Notes under the pieces: model-generated
Seen by the model: only the letters and a program-made list of their open reading frames with translations
Told to the model about the DNA's origin: nothing
The model's database searches: none
Program-made: the position numbers and the translations under genes
DNA from: Kineococcus rubinsiae
Lineage (GTDB): Bacteria; Actinomycetota; Actinomycetes; Actinomycetales; Kineococcaceae
Direction of reading: 5' to 3'
DNA: 64,000 nucleotides
Assembly: GCF_011839805.1 (NCBI RefSeq)
Contig: NZ_VWPY01000010.1
Span: 1-64,000, forward strand
Shown here: positions 17,265 to 24,930 of the stretch, piece after piece
How positions within the stretch are numbered: position 1 is the stretch's first letter
How the letters are laid out: every line of letters begins with the position of its first letter

Positions 17265-17663
17265 ATGCCCGTCACCGTGTCCTCCACCTTCGTCCCCGTC
17301 TCCGACCCCGACGCCGCCCTGGGGTTCTACCGCGACACCCTCGGCCTCGAGGTGCGCAACGACGTCGCCTACGGCGGCTTCCGCTGGGTCACCGTCGGGG
17401 CCCCCGGCCAGGACGTCGACATCGTCCTGTTCCAGCCGCACGGCGGGCGCTCGCAGACCGAGGGCGACGCGCTGCTGACGCTGGTCGCCCAGGGGTCGCT
17501 GCAGGCGGCGATCTTCCGCACCGACGACCTCGACGCGACCTTCGAGAAGGTCCGCGCCTCGGGGGCGGAGGTGCTGCAGGAACCCGCCTCCCAGTCCTGG
17601 GGTGCGCGCGACTGCGCGGTCCGCGACCCGTCCGGGAACCTCGTCCGCATCGCCCAGGCGTGA
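17265..17663 (+). CDS. VOC (glyoxalase/bleomycin-resistance) superfamily protein
   Basis: The 132-residue product is a single VOC fold with two beta-alpha-beta-beta-beta modules. These are the N-terminal FVPVSDPDAALGFYRDTLGL and the C-terminal FRTDDLDATFEKVRASGAEV followed by VRDPSGNLVRI. VOC proteins bind a divalent metal and act as lyases, dioxygenases or antibiotic-binding proteins; the specific role is unknown. The ATG start lacks a ribosome site and is probably leaderless. It pairs with the AraC regulator 98 bp upstream. Its last codons begin a 15-bp tandem repeat. Confidence 0.87.
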   Translation: MPVTVSSTFVPVSDPDAALGFYRDTLGLEVRNDVAYGGFRWVTVGAPGQDVDIVLFQPHGGRSQTEGDALLTLVAQGSLQAAIFRTDDLDATFEKVRASGAEVLQEPASQSWGARDCAVRDPSGNLVRIAQA

Positions 17664-17725
17664 GGCGCCCAGGCATGATGCGCCCAGGCATGATGCGGAC
17701 AGGCGTGATGCGGCCAGGCCCGCTG
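17651..17725. repeat. 15-bp tandem repeat, five copies
   Basis: Five units start at 17651, 17666, 17681, 17696 and 17711. The consensus is CGCCCAGGCATGATG, and units 2 and 3 are identical. The array starts in the last codons of the VOC gene and ends just before the ribosome site of the UvrA-like gene. Confidence 0.88.
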
Positions 17726-17742
17726 CGGCGGAGCGGACGAGC

Positions 17743-20130
17743 GTGACCGGGGTCCCCGCGGCCCGGGAGGCCGGGCCGCGGCACCCCGCCGACGGCCACG
17801 ACCTGATCCGCGTGCTCGGGGCGCGCGAGAACAACCTGCGCGACGTCACCGTCGAGATCCCCAAGCGCCGGCTCACGGTGTTCACGGGGGTGTCCGGCTC
17901 CGGCAAGAGCTCGCTGGTGTTCGCGACGATCGCCGCGGAGTCGCAGCGGATGGTCAACGAGACCTACAGCGCGTTCGTGCAGGGGTTCATGCCGACGCTC
18001 GCGCGCCCCGACGTCGACGTGCTGGAGGGGCTGACGTCCGCGATCGTCGTGGACCAGCGCCGACTGGGGTCGGACCCCCGCTCCACGGTGGGCACGGCCA
18101 CCGACGCGAACGCGCTGCTGCGCATCCTCTTCAGCCGCCTCGCCACGCCCCACCTGGGCTCCCCGCAGGCGTTCGCCTTCAACGTCGCCTCGGTCAGCGG
18201 CGCGGGTGCGGTCACCGTGCAGCGGGGCGGGCGCACGGTGAAGGAGCGCAAGGAGTTCCGCGTCACCGGGGGCATGTGCCCGCGCTGCGAGGGCCGGGGT
18301 TCCGTCTCCGACATCGACCTCACGCAGCTCTACGACGCGGAGAAGTCGCTGAGCGAGGGGGCGCTCACGATCCCCGGCTACAGCATGGACGGGTGGTTCG
18401 GCCGCATCTTCGCGGGCTCGGGGTACTTCGACATGGACCGGCCGATCGGGCGGTTCACGAAGCGGCAGCTGGAGGACCTCCTGCACCGGCCGCCCACGAA
18501 GATCACCGTCGACGGGATCAACCTCACCTACGAGGGGATCATCCCGAAGCTGCAGAAGTCGGTGCTGTCCAAGGACGTCGAGTCGCTGCAGCCGCACGTG
18601 CGGGCCTTCGTCGAGCGGGCCGTGACGTTCGCGACCTGCCCGGACTGCGCCGGGACGCGCCTGAACGAGGGCGTCCGCTCCGCCACGATCGCGGGGGTGA
18701 GCATCGCCGACGCGTGCGCCTGGCAGGTCAGCGACCTGGCCGCCTGGGTGCACGGCCTCGACGAACCCCCGCTGGCCCCGCTGCTCGCGACGCTCGCCGC
18801 GACCCTGGACGCCTTCGTGGGGATCGGGCTCGGCTACCTCTCCCTCGACCGCGCCGCGGGCAGCCTCTCGGGCGGCGAGGGGCAGCGCATCAAGCTGATC
18901 CGGCACCTCGGCTCACCCCTGACCGACGTCACCTACGTCTTCGACGAACCCACGACGGGCCTGCACCCGCACGACGTGGCCCGCATGAACGACCTGCTGC
19001 TCGCGCTGCGGGACAAGGGCAACACCGTCCTGGTCGTCGAGCACGAACCGGAGACCATCGCGATCGCCGACCACGTCGTCGACCTCGGGCCGGGCGCGGG
19101 GACGGCGGGCGGCACCGTGTGCTTCGAGGGCACGTTCGCCGAGCTGCGCGCGAGCGGCACGATCACGGGCCGCCACGTCGACGACCGGACCCCGCTGAAG
19201 CCGGCGGTCCGGCGCAGCACCGGCGCGATCGCCGTGCGGGGCGCGAGCACCCACAACCTGCGGGGCGTCGACGTGGACCTGCCGCTCGGGGTGCTGTGCG
19301 TGGTGACCGGCGTCGCCGGGTCGGGCAAGAGCTCGCTGGTGCACGGTTCCCTGCCGCCCGGCAGCGACGTCGTCTCCGTCGACCAGACGCCGATCCGCGG
19401 GTCGCGGCGCAGCAACCCGGCCACGTACACGGGCCTGCTGGAACCCGTCCGCAAGGCGTTCGCGAAGGCCAACGGCGTGAAGCCCGCGCTGTTCAGCCCG
19501 AACTCCGAGGGCGCCTGCCCGACCTGCGGCGGGGTGGGGGTCGTGTTCAGCGACCTGGCGCTCATGGCCGGGGTCGCCACGACGTGCGAGGAGTGCGACG
19601 GCAAGCGGTTCTTGGCCGCCGTCCTGGAGCACCACCTCGGCGGGCGCGACATCAGCGAGGTCCTCGCCATGCCCGTGGCCGAGGCCCGGGAGTTCTTCGG
19701 GGCGGGGCCGGCGCACACCCCGGCGGCGGCGGCCGTCCTGGACCGCCTCGCCGACGTCGGCCTCGGCTACCTCGGCATCGGCCAGCCGCTCACGTCGCTG
19801 TCCGGCGGGGAGCGGCAGCGGCTGAAGCTCGCCACCCACCTGGGCGGGCGGGCCGGCGTCTACGTCCTGGACGAGCCCACCGCGGGCCTGCACCTCGCCG
19901 ACGTCGAGCAGCTGCTCGCGCTGCTGGACCGGATCGTCGACGGGGGCACGTCGGTGGTGGTCGTCGAGCACCACCTCGCGGTGATGGCCCACGCCGACTG
20001 GATCGTCGACCTGGGCCCGGGCGCGGGCCACGACGGCGGCCGCGTCGTGTTCGCGGGGACACCCGCGGACCTGGTCGCGGACGGCTCCACCCTCACGGGC
20101 CGCCACCTCGCGGCCTACGTCGGCGGCTGA
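17743..20130 (+). CDS. UvrA-like ABC ATPase (UvrA2/drug-resistance type)
   Basis: The 795-residue product has two ABC ATPase halves, each with Walker A (GVSGSGKSS and GVAGSGKSS), signature (LSGGEGQR and LSGGERQR) and a YVFDEPT or YVLDEPT Walker B. Zinc-finger cysteine pairs appear as MCPRCEG, CPDCAG, ACPTCGG and CEECDG. At about 800 residues it is shorter than UvrA proper (about 950) and lacks much of the UvrB-binding insertion. It therefore fits the UvrA2/DrrC-like group linked to drug or DNA-lesion tolerance rather than core repair. The GTG start at 17743 has GGAG upstream. The last 16 bp overlap the convergent phosphatase gene. Confidence 0.85.
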   Translation: MTGVPAAREAGPRHPADGHDLIRVLGARENNLRDVTVEIPKRRLTVFTGVSGSGKSSLVFATIAAESQRMVNETYSAFVQGFMPTLARPDVDVLEGLTSAIVVDQRRLGSDPRSTVGTATDANALLRILFSRLATPHLGSPQAFAFNVASVSGAGAVTVQRGGRTVKERKEFRVTGGMCPRCEGRGSVSDIDLTQLYDAEKSLSEGALTIPGYSMDGWFGRIFAGSGYFDMDRPIGRFTKRQLEDLLHRPPTKITVDGINLTYEGIIPKLQKSVLSKDVESLQPHVRAFVERAVTFATCPDCAGTRLNEGVRSATIAGVSIADACAWQVSDLAAWVHGLDEPPLAPLLATLAATLDAFVGIGLGYLSLDRAAGSLSGGEGQRIKLIRHLGSPLTDVTYVFDEPTTGLHPHDVARMNDLLLALRDKGNTVLVVEHEPETIAIADHVVDLGPGAGTAGGTVCFEGTFAELRASGTITGRHVDDRTPLKPAVRRSTGAIAVRGASTHNLRGVDVDLPLGVLCVVTGVAGSGKSSLVHGSLPPGSDVVSVDQTPIRGSRRSNPATYTGLLEPVRKAFAKANGVKPALFSPNSEGACPTCGGVGVVFSDLALMAGVATTCEECDGKRFLAAVLEHHLGGRDISEVLAMPVAEAREFFGAGPAHTPAAAAVLDRLADVGLGYLGIGQPLTSLSGGERQRLKLATHLGGRAGVYVLDEPTAGLHLADVEQLLALLDRIVDGGTSVVVVEHHLAVMAHADWIVDLGPGAGHDGGRVVFAGTPADLVADGSTLTGRHLAAYVGG

Positions 20131-22478
20131 GGCCCGGCTTCTAGGGACCCGGCTTCCAGGGACCCGGCTTCCAGGGACCCGGCCTCCACGGGAGGCGTCG
20201 GCCCGGCGACCTCCGGGCCGGCGTCGGGGGGCCGCGGGCGGTCCTCGGCGTGCAGCCGGACGGCGACGAGCGCGACGTCGTCCTCGGCGCGGGCCGGGAT
20301 CATCCGGGCCAGGACGCCGTCGCAGAGGTCCTCCAGCGTCGCCCCGGCCAGCTCCGCCACCGCGGCCCGCAACCGGTCCAGGCCCGTGTCGATCGCCTCC
20401 CCGCGCCGCTCGACGAGACCGTCGGTGTAGAGCAGGACCGTCGACCCGCTCTCGACGAGCCGCACCGAGTCCGCGCGCCGGTAGCCGGGGTCGATGCCCA
20501 GCAGCAGGTCGGGGCGGTCCTCGTCCAGCGTCGAGACGGTCCCGTCCGCGCCGAGCAGCAGCGGCGGCAGGTGCCCCGCGCTGGAGAACCGCAGCTGCCG
20601 AAGCCCCTGCTCGTGCTCCGCGGGCGACTGCTCGATGCGGGCCACCAGGGCCGTCGCGGTCGTGTCGACCTGCAGGCCCTGCATCGCCGCGTCCAGGCCG
20701 CTGAGCACCTCGGCGGGGGTGCCGCCCGTGGTGTAGGCGATGCCCCGCAGCAGCCCGCGCAGCTGCCCCATCGCCGCGGCCGCGTCGTTGTCGTGGCCCA
20801 TGACGTCACCGATGACCAGGACGGTCGCGCGGTCGGGCTGCAGGAACGCGTCGTACCAGTCGCCGCCGACCTGCGCGGCCTCGGCCGCGGGCTGGTAGCG
20901 CACCGCGACCTGGGTGTGGTCCGGCTCCACGGGGGCCGTGAGCAGGCTGCGCTGCAGGCCCTCCGCCATCCGGTGCTGCTGGGTGAACAGGCGGGCGTTG
21001 TCCAGGGCCAGCCCGGCGCGGTCGGCGATCTCCGTGGCCGTCAGCAGGTCCTCGCCGGCCAGCGGGGGGCGGTCCGCGCCCCGGAACAGGGTCACGAGCC
21101 CGCACGTGCGCCCGCGGGCCCGCACGGGCAGGACGGCCGCGCTCTCGGGCGCCAGCCGCTGCAGCACCGCGCGGGCCTGCGGGGAGGCCAGGACCTCCGA
21201 GATGGCCGGCACCGCACCGGAGGGGATCAGCACCTGCCGGCCCCCGCGCAGCGCCCGGTCGAGGAACGAGCGCGAGCGCAGCGCCCGCATCCGCAGGTCC
21301 TGGTAGCCGCCGACCAGCCCGCGCAGGTCCGGGTCCGCGTGCCAGGAGCCGAGGTCGCGCAGCTGGCCGTGGTCGTCGACGAGGCTGACCAGGCACCAGT
21401 CCGCCAGGGCGGGCACGAGGTTCTGCGTCAGGCGGGCCACGGCCTCCTCGGCGTCCAGCGTCGACGTCAGGTCCTCGCTGACCCGCGCCAGCAGCTGCAG
21501 CCGCTGGGCGGTCGCCTCGGCCGCGTCCTGGTTGGCCCGGGCCCGCTGCAGGGCGGCCTCGAGCTCGGCGCTGGCCGCCTCGGCGGCCTCGCGGGCGGCC
21601 TCCGCCTCGGCCTGCGCGCGGCGGCGGGCGGTGACGTCGAGGAAGTACACCGACACCCCGTCGGGGTCCGGCCAGGCCCGCACCTCGTACCAGGCGTCCA
21701 GCGGGGGCGGGTAGTACGCCTCGAAGCTGCCGGGTTCACCGCCGGCCGCGACCGCCCGGTAGTGCGTCTCGAAGTCCGAGCCGAGCGCGGCGGGGAACAG
21801 CGCCCACACGTCGCCGCCGAGCAGCTCGGCGGCGGGTCGCCCCAGCAGCCGCTCCGCCTCGGCGTTGACGTAGGTGAACCGCCACTCCCGGTCCAGGGAG
21901 AAGAACGCCGTGGTCATCGACTCCAGGACCCGCGCCACCCGGGCGTCGGAGTCCCGGGCGGCCGTCGTGTCGTAACCCGCCCCCAGGACGCGGACCGCGC
22001 GGCCCGCGGCGTCGGGCACGGCCCGCCCCCGCGCCTGGACCCAGCGGGTCGCCCCGCCGGGCAGCAGGACGCGGTACTCGGCGGCGAACTCCCCGCACCC
22101 GTCGATGCACTGCTGGAGGTTCTGCAGGACCCGCGGCAGGTCCTCGGGGTGCAACCGCGCCGTGAACGCCTCGAACGTCGGCTCGAAACCCGCTGCGTCG
22201 TAGCCGAACAGCTCGACCATGCGCTCGTCCCAGGTCAGCACCCCGGTCCGCAGGTCCCAGTCGAAGCCGCCGACCCCGGCCGCGGCGATGGCGACCTCCC
22301 AGCGCAACCGCCGGGCCCCCTCGTCCGGGGACGCCGGCGCACCGTCGTCCCGGGCCGTTCCGCTCACCACCACGCCGCACCCCGCGCACCCGCGCTGCCG
22401 GCGGGCTTGGCTCACCGCCTGCGGCCGCGGCGGGACCGCGACCGACGGCGTCATCCTTCCACGCCCGCGGGCGGGCAC
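20115..22478 (-). CDS. PAS-PAS-GAF-PP2C (SpoIIE-type) serine phosphatase
   Basis: The 787-residue product has two PAS domains (about 65-170 and 183-285; FGYDAAGFEPTFEAF and FTYVNAEAERLLGRPAAEL). A coiled-coil-like Ala/Glu stretch (about 286-330) and a GAF domain (about 340-500) follow. The SpoIIE/RsbU-type PP2C phosphatase (about 510-750) has GGDWYDAF, IGDVMGHDNDAAAAM, FSSAGHLPPLLL and LLYTDGLVERR, with metal-binding aspartates present. Such proteins dephosphorylate anti-sigma-factor antagonists in response to signals. The extreme C-terminus is a run of EAGSL repeats encoded by a 15-bp array. GTG 22478 has GGAGG just upstream. The gene lies 30 bp downstream of the LOV-cyclic-di-GMP gene and is probably co-transcribed with it. 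Confidence 0.88.
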   Translation of the reverse strand: MPARGRGRMTPSVAVPPRPQAVSQARRQRGCAGCGVVVSGTARDDGAPASPDEGARRLRWEVAIAAAGVGGFDWDLRTGVLTWDERMVELFGYDAAGFEPTFEAFTARLHPEDLPRVLQNLQQCIDGCGEFAAEYRVLLPGGATRWVQARGRAVPDAAGRAVRVLGAGYDTTAARDSDARVARVLESMTTAFFSLDREWRFTYVNAEAERLLGRPAAELLGGDVWALFPAALGSDFETHYRAVAAGGEPGSFEAYYPPPLDAWYEVRAWPDPDGVSVYFLDVTARRRAQAEAEAAREAAEAASAELEAALQRARANQDAAEATAQRLQLLARVSEDLTSTLDAEEAVARLTQNLVPALADWCLVSLVDDHGQLRDLGSWHADPDLRGLVGGYQDLRMRALRSRSFLDRALRGGRQVLIPSGAVPAISEVLASPQARAVLQRLAPESAAVLPVRARGRTCGLVTLFRGADRPPLAGEDLLTATEIADRAGLALDNARLFTQQHRMAEGLQRSLLTAPVEPDHTQVAVRYQPAAEAAQVGGDWYDAFLQPDRATVLVIGDVMGHDNDAAAAMGQLRGLLRGIAYTTGGTPAEVLSGLDAAMQGLQVDTTATALVARIEQSPAEHEQGLRQLRFSSAGHLPPLLLGADGTVSTLDEDRPDLLLGIDPGYRRADSVRLVESGSTVLLYTDGLVERRGEAIDTGLDRLRAAVAELAGATLEDLCDGVLARMIPARAEDDVALVAVRLHAEDRPRPPDAGPEVAGPTPPVEAGSLEAGSLEAGSLEAGPQPPT
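20134..20193. repeat. 15-bp tandem repeat, four copies, in phosphatase 3' end
   Basis: Units start at 20134, 20149, 20164 and 20179 (consensus CCGGCTTCCAGGGAC). On the minus strand they encode the EAGSL repeats that end the phosphatase. The array abuts the stop of the convergent UvrA-like gene. Confidence 0.9.
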
Positions 22479-22508: not shown

Positions 22509-24767
22509 TCAGCGCGCCGCGTGCTTGACCGCGTACATGCGGCTGTCCGCGAGCTGCAGCAGCTGCGGCAGGCCGCTGGCGGCCGCGGAGTCGGCGGGGA
22601 ACGTGCTGACCCCGATGCTGGCGGTCACCTCGACGGGGGTCCCGTCCAGGTCGAACGGCGCCGCGATGGCCTCGGCGAGCTCGCCCGCGACGCGGTGCGC
22701 CACGTCGGCGGCGGTGTCGACGTCCAGGCCGGTGAGGGCGACGAGGAACTCGTCGCCGCCCAGGCGGGCCGCGAGGTCGCTGCGGCGCAGGCGGGACTGC
22801 AGCCGGCGCGCCACCTGGACCAGGAGGTCGTCGCCGGCCGCGTGCCCGAGGCGGTCGTTGACGGCCTTGAACCCGTCGAGGTCCATGAAGAGCACGGCGA
22901 AGGCGTCGTCGCCCGAGGACGCGTTCCACAGCGCCACCTCGACGCGGTCCTCGAACCGGCGCCGGTTCATCAGGCCGGTCAGGGAGTCGGTGAACGCGAG
23001 CTGCTCGATGCGGGAGAGGTAGCTGCGCGCCCGGTCGCGCTCCTGCACGAGGGCCTGCTCGGCGTCCACGCGGGCGGTGACGTCGTTCTGGACCCCGATG
23101 TACTGCACGACGCGGCCGGCCTCGTCCACGACGGGAGCCATGTGGATCTCGTTCCACCACGGCGTGCGGTCCGCGCCGCGGTAGTTCAGGAGGGTCTCGC
23201 GGCACTCGCGCCCTTCCGCGATCGCGGTGCGCAGGCGGCTGATCGCGTCGTGGCCCGTGTCCTGGCCCTGCAGGAAGCGGCAGTTGCGGCCCAGCAGCTC
23301 CTCCGAGCGGAACCCGGCGAGCTCCTCGAACGCGCGGTTGACGAACACGAGGGGCTGGTCCGGCTGCGTCATGTCCGCGATGGTGATGCCGCTGGTGGAG
23401 GCGGCCAGGGCGCGGTGCAGGACGGGGTCGCCCACCGACGCCGGCCCGTGCGTCGCGGTGGTCGTGGCGACGGGCGCGGACGGGGCCGTGGCCGTGGCCG
23501 CGGGGTGCGCTGCGGCGCTGCGGCTCAGGGGCGTGTCGATGGCCGGCGCGACGCGGGAGAGCAGGCTGTGCGCCGCGGCGACCACCGTGTCCCGGCGGTA
23601 GGTCAGGGCGTACTCGTAGGTGCGGTCCATGTCGGGGCCGTCGTCGCCGAGGTCCCGCGCGAGCAGGGCCGCGCTGAAGTGGGGGCTGACCACCACGACG
23701 TCCCACTCCCCGCGGATCGGGTCGTCGGGGGAGAGCGCCGCGCCCCGCACACCGGGCACGGGTTCCACGGGCAGGTCCTCGCCCAGCGCGCACACGAAGC
23801 CCGTGCGGGCCACGAGGTCGCGGTAGCGCAGCGAGGTCGCCGGCGTGAAGTGGCGCGCCTCCTGGAACGTCGAGGCGACCACGCAGGTCTCGCCCAGGCG
23901 CATGGCCTGGCGCTCCAGCTGCTTGCTCAGCTCCACGAGCAGGCGCTTGGGGGAGCGGCGCAGCGGCACCGCCGGCGGCAGGCACGCGAACGGCGACGGC
24001 GCCGTCTCGCGCGACGGGGGCGCCTCGGGCAGCCGGAGCTCCTGCACGGGGTACTGCGCCGCGGGCCCGGCCGCGGGCCGGCCGAACAGCCAGCCCTGCC
24101 CGAGGCTCGCGCCCAGCGCGCGCGCGATCGTCAGGTGCTTCGGCGTCTCGATGCCCTCGGCGAGCACGAGCGCGCCCGTGCGCTCGGCGTAGTCGTTGAC
24201 GGCGTTCATGATCTCGGCGATGACGGGGGAGGGGCGGTCCTGCACCAGGCGCAGGTCCAGCTTCACCACGTCGGGACGCAGCAGGGGCATGAAGGCCAGC
24301 GAGGCGGCGTCGGCCCCGACGTCGTCCAGGGCGACGCCCCAGCCGAGCGCCCGCACGCGCTCGACGGTCCTCAGCAGCTCCGCGGGCCGGGTGGCGAGCG
24401 CGCGCTCGGTGATCTCCAGGACGATCCGCAGCTCGCCGGGGGCGCCCTCGGCCAGCGCGAGCAGGTCGTCGACGGGGGCGGTGTCCAGCACCTCGGGCTC
24501 GACGTTGACGAACACCGTGAGCGGGGCCAGGAGCCCGTGCTCGATCGCGCCCCGGAAGGCCGCGGCCCGGCAGGCCTGGTCGAGCTCGGCGAGGAGCCCC
24601 GCGGCGCGGGCCGCGGCGAACAGCTGGTCCGGGCTCGCGAGCGGTCCCTGCGGGCCGCGCGCCAGCGCTTCGTAGGCCACGACCGCGCCGCTGTCGAGGT
24701 CGATGATGGGCTGGAAGACGCTCACGACCGCGTCGGCCGCCAGCACCTGCTCGATGGGGGTGTTCAC
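22509..24767 (-). CDS. EAL-DICT-LOV-GGDEF cyclic-di-GMP protein, putative blue-light sensor
   Basis: The 752-residue product has an N-terminal EAL phosphodiesterase (about 10-245): EAL 33-35, Asn88, Glu118, Asp148-Asp149, Lys169, Glu204 and Gln224 all present. A DICT-like sensory domain follows (about 270-410), then a PAS domain with LOV hallmarks (about 450-570). The C-terminal GGDEF cyclase (about 585-750) has GGDEF 670-674 and an inhibitory RxxD site at 661-664. The LOV segment reads GRNCRFLQ (493-500) with the flavin-adduct Cys496, plus Asn528, Asn539 and Gln560. Both enzymatic halves look intact, and domain order is reversed from the usual GGDEF-EAL. GTG 24767 has GAGGAG 6 bp upstream. 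It precedes the PP2C phosphatase gene. Confidence 0.88.
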   Translation of the reverse strand: MNTPIEQVLAADAVVSVFQPIIDLDSGAVVAYEALARGPQGPLASPDQLFAAARAAGLLAELDQACRAAAFRGAIEHGLLAPLTVFVNVEPEVLDTAPVDDLLALAEGAPGELRIVLEITERALATRPAELLRTVERVRALGWGVALDDVGADAASLAFMPLLRPDVVKLDLRLVQDRPSPVIAEIMNAVNDYAERTGALVLAEGIETPKHLTIARALGASLGQGWLFGRPAAGPAAQYPVQELRLPEAPPSRETAPSPFACLPPAVPLRRSPKRLLVELSKQLERQAMRLGETCVVASTFQEARHFTPATSLRYRDLVARTGFVCALGEDLPVEPVPGVRGAALSPDDPIRGEWDVVVVSPHFSAALLARDLGDDGPDMDRTYEYALTYRRDTVVAAAHSLLSRVAPAIDTPLSRSAAAHPAATATAPSAPVATTTATHGPASVGDPVLHRALAASTSGITIADMTQPDQPLVFVNRAFEELAGFRSEELLGRNCRFLQGQDTGHDAISRLRTAIAEGRECRETLLNYRGADRTPWWNEIHMAPVVDEAGRVVQYIGVQNDVTARVDAEQALVQERDRARSYLSRIEQLAFTDSLTGLMNRRRFEDRVEVALWNASSGDDAFAVLFMDLDGFKAVNDRLGHAAGDDLLVQVARRLQSRLRRSDLAARLGGDEFLVALTGLDVDTAADVAHRVAGELAEAIAAPFDLDGTPVEVTASIGVSTFPADSAAASGLPQLLQLADSRMYAVKHAAR

Positions 24768-24930
24768 GTCGACTCCTCAGGCTCCGACCGGGGACGGCGC
24801 CGCCCTGTTCGGGCACCGCTCCACGAGACTCCCGTCCCATCGGCAGTCACCCCTGCGGGCTGAAGGAGGTGGCCCGGGGTCCCCACCGCGGGGTGGTCCG
24901 CGGCCCTCGCCCGGTCACCGTCGAGGCGGT

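Follow-up and report, generated by a model that had tools for sequence, protein, structure and literature searches.

The closest described relatives of the locus analysed here are the LOV-activated cyclases (LadCs), which Vide et al. (PMC10396304) divide into two classes by the number of residues, 35 or 21, separating the Asp of the LOV motif D(I/V)(T/S) from the Leu of DxLT. The 35-residue class is tightly inhibited in the dark and activated more than 10,000-fold by light, whilst the 21-residue class is leakier (PMC10396304). As for c-di-GMP degradation, SL2 of Synechococcus elongatus, a LOV-GGDEF-EAL protein, is a blue-light phosphodiesterase (PMC8846402), and active EAL domains are known to share a loop 6 of consensus DFG(A/S/T)(A/G)(Y/F)(S/T)x (PMC2994820).

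The gene considered in this work lies on the minus strand of the window (i.e., the whole stretch of 64,000 nucleotides analysed) and encodes, in a single chain, the four domains laid out in Table 1. We interpret its product as a blue-light-switched bifunctional c-di-GMP enzyme, predicted to degrade the messenger in the dark and to synthesize it under blue light, and we would put the probability of this reading at roughly 0.55. Its parts are known, and soil actinobacteria related to the host share their layout, yet the arrangement appears to be undescribed: searches of open-licence papers for DICT together with LOV, EAL and GGDEF found no description of it.

Table 1. Features of the EAL-DICT-LOV-GGDEF locus, in window coordinates.
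Feature	Position	Strand	Basis or remark
Whole gene, 752-aa EAL-DICT-LOV-GGDEF protein	22509..24767	minus	GTG start at 24767
Shine-Dalgarno-like GAGGAG, 5 nt before GTG start	24773..24778	minus	sequence
EAL domain, aa 8-231	24075..24746	minus	Pfam
EAL loop 6, aa 148-157, DDVGADAASL, non-consensus	24297..24326	minus	alignment
DICT domain, aa 265-404, Pfam core 271-372	23556..23975	minus	Pfam
DICT-to-LOV tether, Ala/Pro/Thr-rich, flexible, aa 405-452	23412..23555	minus	variable length, dN/dS, pLDDT < 50
LOV domain, aa 453-566	23070..23411	minus	Pfam, PDB sequence search, fold comparison
Cys496 codon, predicted flavin-adduct cysteine	23280..23282	minus	motif GRNCRFLQ at 23268-23291
LOV-GGDEF signalling linker, Asp562-Leu596, exactly 35 aa	22980..23084	minus	long-linker LadC class; helix 564-592 in model; PMC10396304
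GGDEF diguanylate cyclase domain, aa 591-751	22515..22997	minus	Pfam
Inhibitory I-site RxxD = RRSD, aa 661-664	22776..22787	minus	sequence
GGDEF catalytic motif, aa 670-674	22746..22760	minus	sequence
Adjacent downstream gene, PAS-PAS-GAF-SpoIIE (PP2C-type)	20115..22478	minus	30 nt after stop of EAL-DICT-LOV-GGDEF gene

All four domains score above the Pfam gathering cut-offs (EAL 8-231, E-value 2e-42; DICT 271-372, 8e-11; PAS_9 467-565, 9e-17; GGDEF 591-751, 1e-41), the DICT match (PF10069) reaching 42.4 bits against a gathering score of 23.8. The residue numbers given in a preliminary description of the sequence proved correct on recomputation, i.e., GRNCRFLQ as G493-Q500 with Cys496, followed by Asn528, Asn539 and Gln560, in the PAS-like domain, and Glu33, Asn88, Glu118, Asp148, Asp149, Lys169, Glu204 and Gln224 in the EAL domain; the GGDEF and RxxD motifs that the description names lie at the positions in Table 1. 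In the cyclase domain MDLDGFKAVND fits DxDxFKxxND which, with GGDEF and RRSD, leaves the metal and I-site residues intact. The intact GGDEF and I-site, together with a linker of the cyclase type, support the prediction that this domain is cyclase-competent.

The same description took the PAS-like domain for a LOV domain, and a real LOV domain, predicted to bind flavin, it is. Compared with the PDB, the 144-aa region around it (residues 443-586) matches a Meiothermus LOV domain (9vf7) with an E-value of 4e-34, and LOV photoreceptors predominate among its matches. Two blue-light families of NCBIfam, YtvA and blue-light histidine kinase, also match it, below their whole-protein cut-offs, as is to be expected since its architecture differs from that of those families. 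In an AlphaFold model of the protein (pLDDT 66.8 overall, mostly 80-90 in LOV and about 90 in GGDEF), Foldseek returned the LOV-activated cyclase MsLadC (8c05) as the best match to the whole model, and the LOV part fits MrLOVe (9vf7) with a TM score of 0.93 by target and 1.7 A over 138 columns. PDB, NCBIfam and fold comparisons thus all point to LOV rather than to a PAS domain of another kind, the possibility that the description itself had raised. Cys496, Asn528, Asn539 and Gln560 are each retained in 37 of the 39 main-clade homologues, the two exceptions forming one decayed paralogue lineage (C87 of the host and, in genome G014, its counterpart of the K. siccus type). The domain also has Arg497 and Arg513, by our assignment the two arginines through which LOV domains contact the phosphate of flavin.

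The class of the linker is the sharp new point of this analysis. From the Asp of DVT to the Leu of DxLT there are 35 residues here and in all intact main-clade homologues with both ends readable, as opposed to 21 in each of 41 other PAS/LOV-GGDEF linkers (41/41), a non-random control chosen by peptide patterns among the collected loci, where a stricter pattern gave just 8 sequences, this protein among them, and a relaxed one the 41. The divergent relatives L130, L144 and L145 also have linkers of 21 residues. Our linker aligns without a gap to that of MsLadC, carries Arg566 where MsLadC has Gln122 (Arg being the residue of most LadCs at this position), and is spanned by a continuous helix in the AlphaFold model. 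It is from this class that the direction of the light effect is predicted. Even so, the protein is LadC-like in anatomy and, judged by its motifs, outside formal LadC membership. Gx(N/D)C(R/H)(F/I)L(Q/A), DxLT and GG(D/E)EF are present as GRNCRFLQ, DSLT and GGDEF, but of the three filter motifs for LOV only one is strictly matched, since FxxxT(G/E)Y reads FEELAGF and N(Y/F)xxx(G/D)xx(F/L)xN reads NYRGADRTPWWN, which has one residue inserted and Trp in place of Phe/Leu; under the rules of the LadC study the protein would therefore not count as a LadC. Nor is the inhibitory salt bridge of MsLadC, Asp44-Arg174, conserved, these positions being taken by Arg487 and Ser618 and variable in the family; in later work by the authors of the LadC study, selected single interface substitutions were mostly without effect (PMC12805367).

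In the mechanism that we propose, the C-terminal half would behave as a long-linker LadC-type module, its LOV dimer keeping the two GGDEF domains apart in the dark. Blue light would produce the Cys496-FMN adduct, upon which the linker would extend as a coiled coil in the stimulating register, the GGDEF domains would meet, and c-di-GMP would be made, the RxxD I-site capping the output. The EAL-DICT half, on its floppy tether, would hydrolyse c-di-GMP, either constitutively or as gated by the signal of DICT, and hold its level low in the dark. In all this the domains, the catalytic and LOV residues, the conserved length of the linker and the variability of the tether are seen in the sequence, and we infer the flavin binding, the direction of the light effect, the EAL activity and the DICT signal. 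The preliminary description let light set the balance of synthesis and breakdown, which is plausible but too general a statement, given the linker of invariant length and helical form towards GGDEF and the flexible tether towards EAL-DICT.

That tether ranges from 34 to 78 aa among clade members and is disordered in the AlphaFold model (399-450). Its dN/dS against two congeners is 0.57-1.13, compared to 0.06-0.13 for EAL and DICT, 0.15-0.23 for LOV and 0.22-0.44 for GGDEF. These values come from the simple Nei-Gojobori method, applied at a very high GC3, and should be taken as ranks. A connection so variable, disordered and fast-evolving is unlikely to give LOV a rigid route to EAL, and its variable length and fast evolution suggest that light most directly drives the cyclase. 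DICT itself is poorly modelled (pLDDT about 25-50), because the alignment held only 9 rows over EAL-DICT.

Among named relatives the closest is Kineococcus siccus, with residues 1-748 matched and 86% identity in the best segment. A query with the DICT part finds a match in 44 of the 198 genomes searched in the order, including ten of the ten congeners listed, and in 31 of 396 genomes across the phylum, where the matches are mostly stand-alone EAL-DICT or other DICT proteins. In the EAL-DICT tree the long-linker LOV proteins form one clade of 39, with support of 100/99, and L130, L144 and L145 fall outside it (L189 was left out of the tree). The order of domains, earlier called uncommon, is so overall but not in Kineococcus and Geodermatophilaceae, where it is fixed, the host genome alone having three EAL-DICT paralogues (this protein, C54 and C87). 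The idea that two of these three are blind was discarded, as C54, flagged as motif-less by a regular expression, shows its LOV cysteine on alignment (GRNCRFAQ), which leaves only C87 blind. In C87 (L135) the LOV motif reads GRSARHLD and GGDEF reads GPREF, with EAL intact; it shares with L139 a decayed LOV (Ala for Cys, and no Gln), a degenerate GGDEF or metal site, and fully intact EAL and DICT domains, so that this paralogue is probably a light-blind phosphodiesterase.

Another simplification is found as well. Within the long-linker clade four Modestobacter genomes, which group together, have lost GGDEF, and so, on a separate branch, has genome G101 (L127). The resulting proteins (L028, L029, L030, L032 and L127) end just past the LOV helix, as independent and clean losses, and keep the Cys, both Asn and the Gln of the LOV signature. 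No GGDEF was found in about 6 kb downstream of the Modestobacter genes, and none was seen within about 0.9 kb downstream of the G101 gene. In L128 GGDEF is degenerate and the LOV Cys kept. At L031 6729-6753 (Modestobacter sp. DSM 44400) EAL and DICT lie in different frames, through a frameshift or a sequencing error.

The survival of LOV in homologues without GGDEF means that GGDEF cannot be its sole target, and that some effect on EAL-DICT is likely, e.g., via dimerisation. From there it is a short step to supposing that light acts mainly on EAL, a rearrangement of the LOV dimer being relayed to EAL-DICT to switch the phosphodiesterase, with GGDEF secondary or modulatory, as in SL2. The clean losses of GGDEF and the L128 protein are in favour of this, as are the blue-light phosphodiesterase activity of SL2 itself (PMC8846402) and the fact that EAL-DICT is the most conserved part of the protein (invariant columns 89 of 231 in EAL and 39 of 140 in DICT, against 15 of 114 in LOV and 12 of 160 in GGDEF). 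However, the tether described above is unlike a signal helix, whilst it is the LOV-GGDEF linker that stays constant in length among intact members; SL2-type linkers, moreover, are of 21 residues and not 35 (PMC10396304), and the paralogue that has lost LOV function has lost GGDEF function with it and kept EAL. On balance we consider a light effect mainly on EAL unlikely, and retain the light-driven cyclase as the main reading, in which LOV may also act on EAL-DICT. A fuller version of it, which we offer tentatively, is a photoswitch of opposed activities in which light would raise the cyclase by orders of magnitude over the standing activity of an EAL domain of a distinct loop-6 subfamily, and in which LOV would reach EAL-DICT too, so that GGDEF could be trimmed (Modestobacter), or LOV and GGDEF silenced (C87), with enzymes still working.

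How far that standing activity can be counted upon depends on loop 6. The preliminary description held the EAL motif set to be complete and both activities intact, which is borne out for the metal and catalytic residues, as well as for GGDEF, its I-site and the cyclase-type linker, but not for this loop, which is off the consensus and reads DDVGADAAS instead of DDFG(T/A)GYSS; the phosphodiesterase activity may therefore be low or absent. Yet every member of the main clade has DDVGA[D/E]xxSL, and loops of the DDVG type recur widely among the EAL-DICT proteins of the phylum, so that the variant is a subfamily signature and not a sign of decay. The deviation of the loop from that of active EAL domains (PMC2994820), and its invariance in the clade, would also suit an EAL domain that binds c-di-GMP as a sensor instead of degrading it, the protein then being a light-activated cyclase with product sensing. 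We find this improbable, as the eight metal and catalytic residues and the loop-6-stabilizing Glu121 are invariant in 39 of 39 homologues, the catalytic set persists in the stand-alone EAL-DICT proteins L129, L131 and L132, and a dead lineage, L133, shows what decay looks like, having lost catalytic and loop residues together. In this EAL-DICT protein every catalytic residue examined is gone except the loop-region Glu, and frames of about 440 aa like it occur in many genomes of one genus (g8, family f7); proteins of the L133 type are possibly non-catalytic regulators. Kineococcus lives in exposed habitats. Such habitats, and the LOV-like PASd of RmcA, a proposed flavin redox reader (PMC8846402), could suggest that LOV senses flavin redox state instead of, or besides, light in a desiccation- and oxidation-tolerant actinobacterium, but a pure redox reader needs no adduct cysteine (PASd has none) and this one is kept in 37 of 39 homologues, so that we give the idea very little weight.

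The surroundings of the gene were also considered. A conserved neighbourhood was rejected, as the downstream SpoIIE gene and an upstream oxidoreductase gene are not retained beside orthologues; the former is a possible operon partner here, although not conserved next to most of them. A UvrA-like ABC ATPase gene lies at 17602-20130 (plus strand) of the window, and one is also found near the orthologues of K. siccus (L024) and Klenkia (L026), and at none of the other long loci checked, so that it was set aside as a sign of conserved context. The host genome gives 92 matches to the query domains (many of them GGDEF and EAL proteins), along with three PilZ and two flagellin matches, so that both motility genes and machinery for c-di-GMP output are encoded. 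It also holds four further exact LOV adduct motifs (C28:47428, C54:123272, C65:48480 and C98:73514; L174-L177), and the loci overlapping them (L016, L020, L006 and L013) carry SpoIIE-like phosphatase sequence, which suggests a set of LOV-phosphatase photoreceptors.

If the interpretation proposed here is correct, the long-linker LadC switch, known so far from stand-alone proteins, is now met as part of a naturally occurring bifunctional enzyme, in actinobacteria that are not phototrophs. The intact proteins, those without GGDEF, those with LOV and GGDEF decayed, and the stand-alone EAL-DICT proteins make up a natural series, in which one can ask how a single light sensor governs opposing enzymes and what DICT senses. 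The protein would also be a candidate optogenetic tool, with c-di-GMP both cleared and made by one chain.

Among known systems, the stand-alone EAL-DICT proteins of Actinomycetota (about 420-550 aa; PF00563 and PF10069) share with ours the EAL-DICT unit and, mostly, a DDVG-type loop 6, but lack the LOV-GGDEF half, whereas L130, L144, L145 and L189 have the same order of domains but belong to the 21-aa linker class and are roughly 40-57% identical by domain. SL2 (PMC8846402) unites the same three catalytic and sensor domains, with a canonical LOV, in one chain, but its EAL is C-terminal and its linker of 21 aa, as opposed to the N-terminal EAL, the DICT domain in between and the 35-aa linker of the Kineococcus protein. 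MsLadC and the other long-linker LadCs (PDB 8c05; PMC10396304, PMC12805367) come closest, being the top match in sequence and fold and having in common the LOV-GGDEF order, the length and gapless alignment of the linker, the adduct Cys, DxLT, GGDEF and RxxD; only in the Kineococcus protein, however, does an EAL-DICT half precede this module, whose activation by light is here a prediction from sequence.
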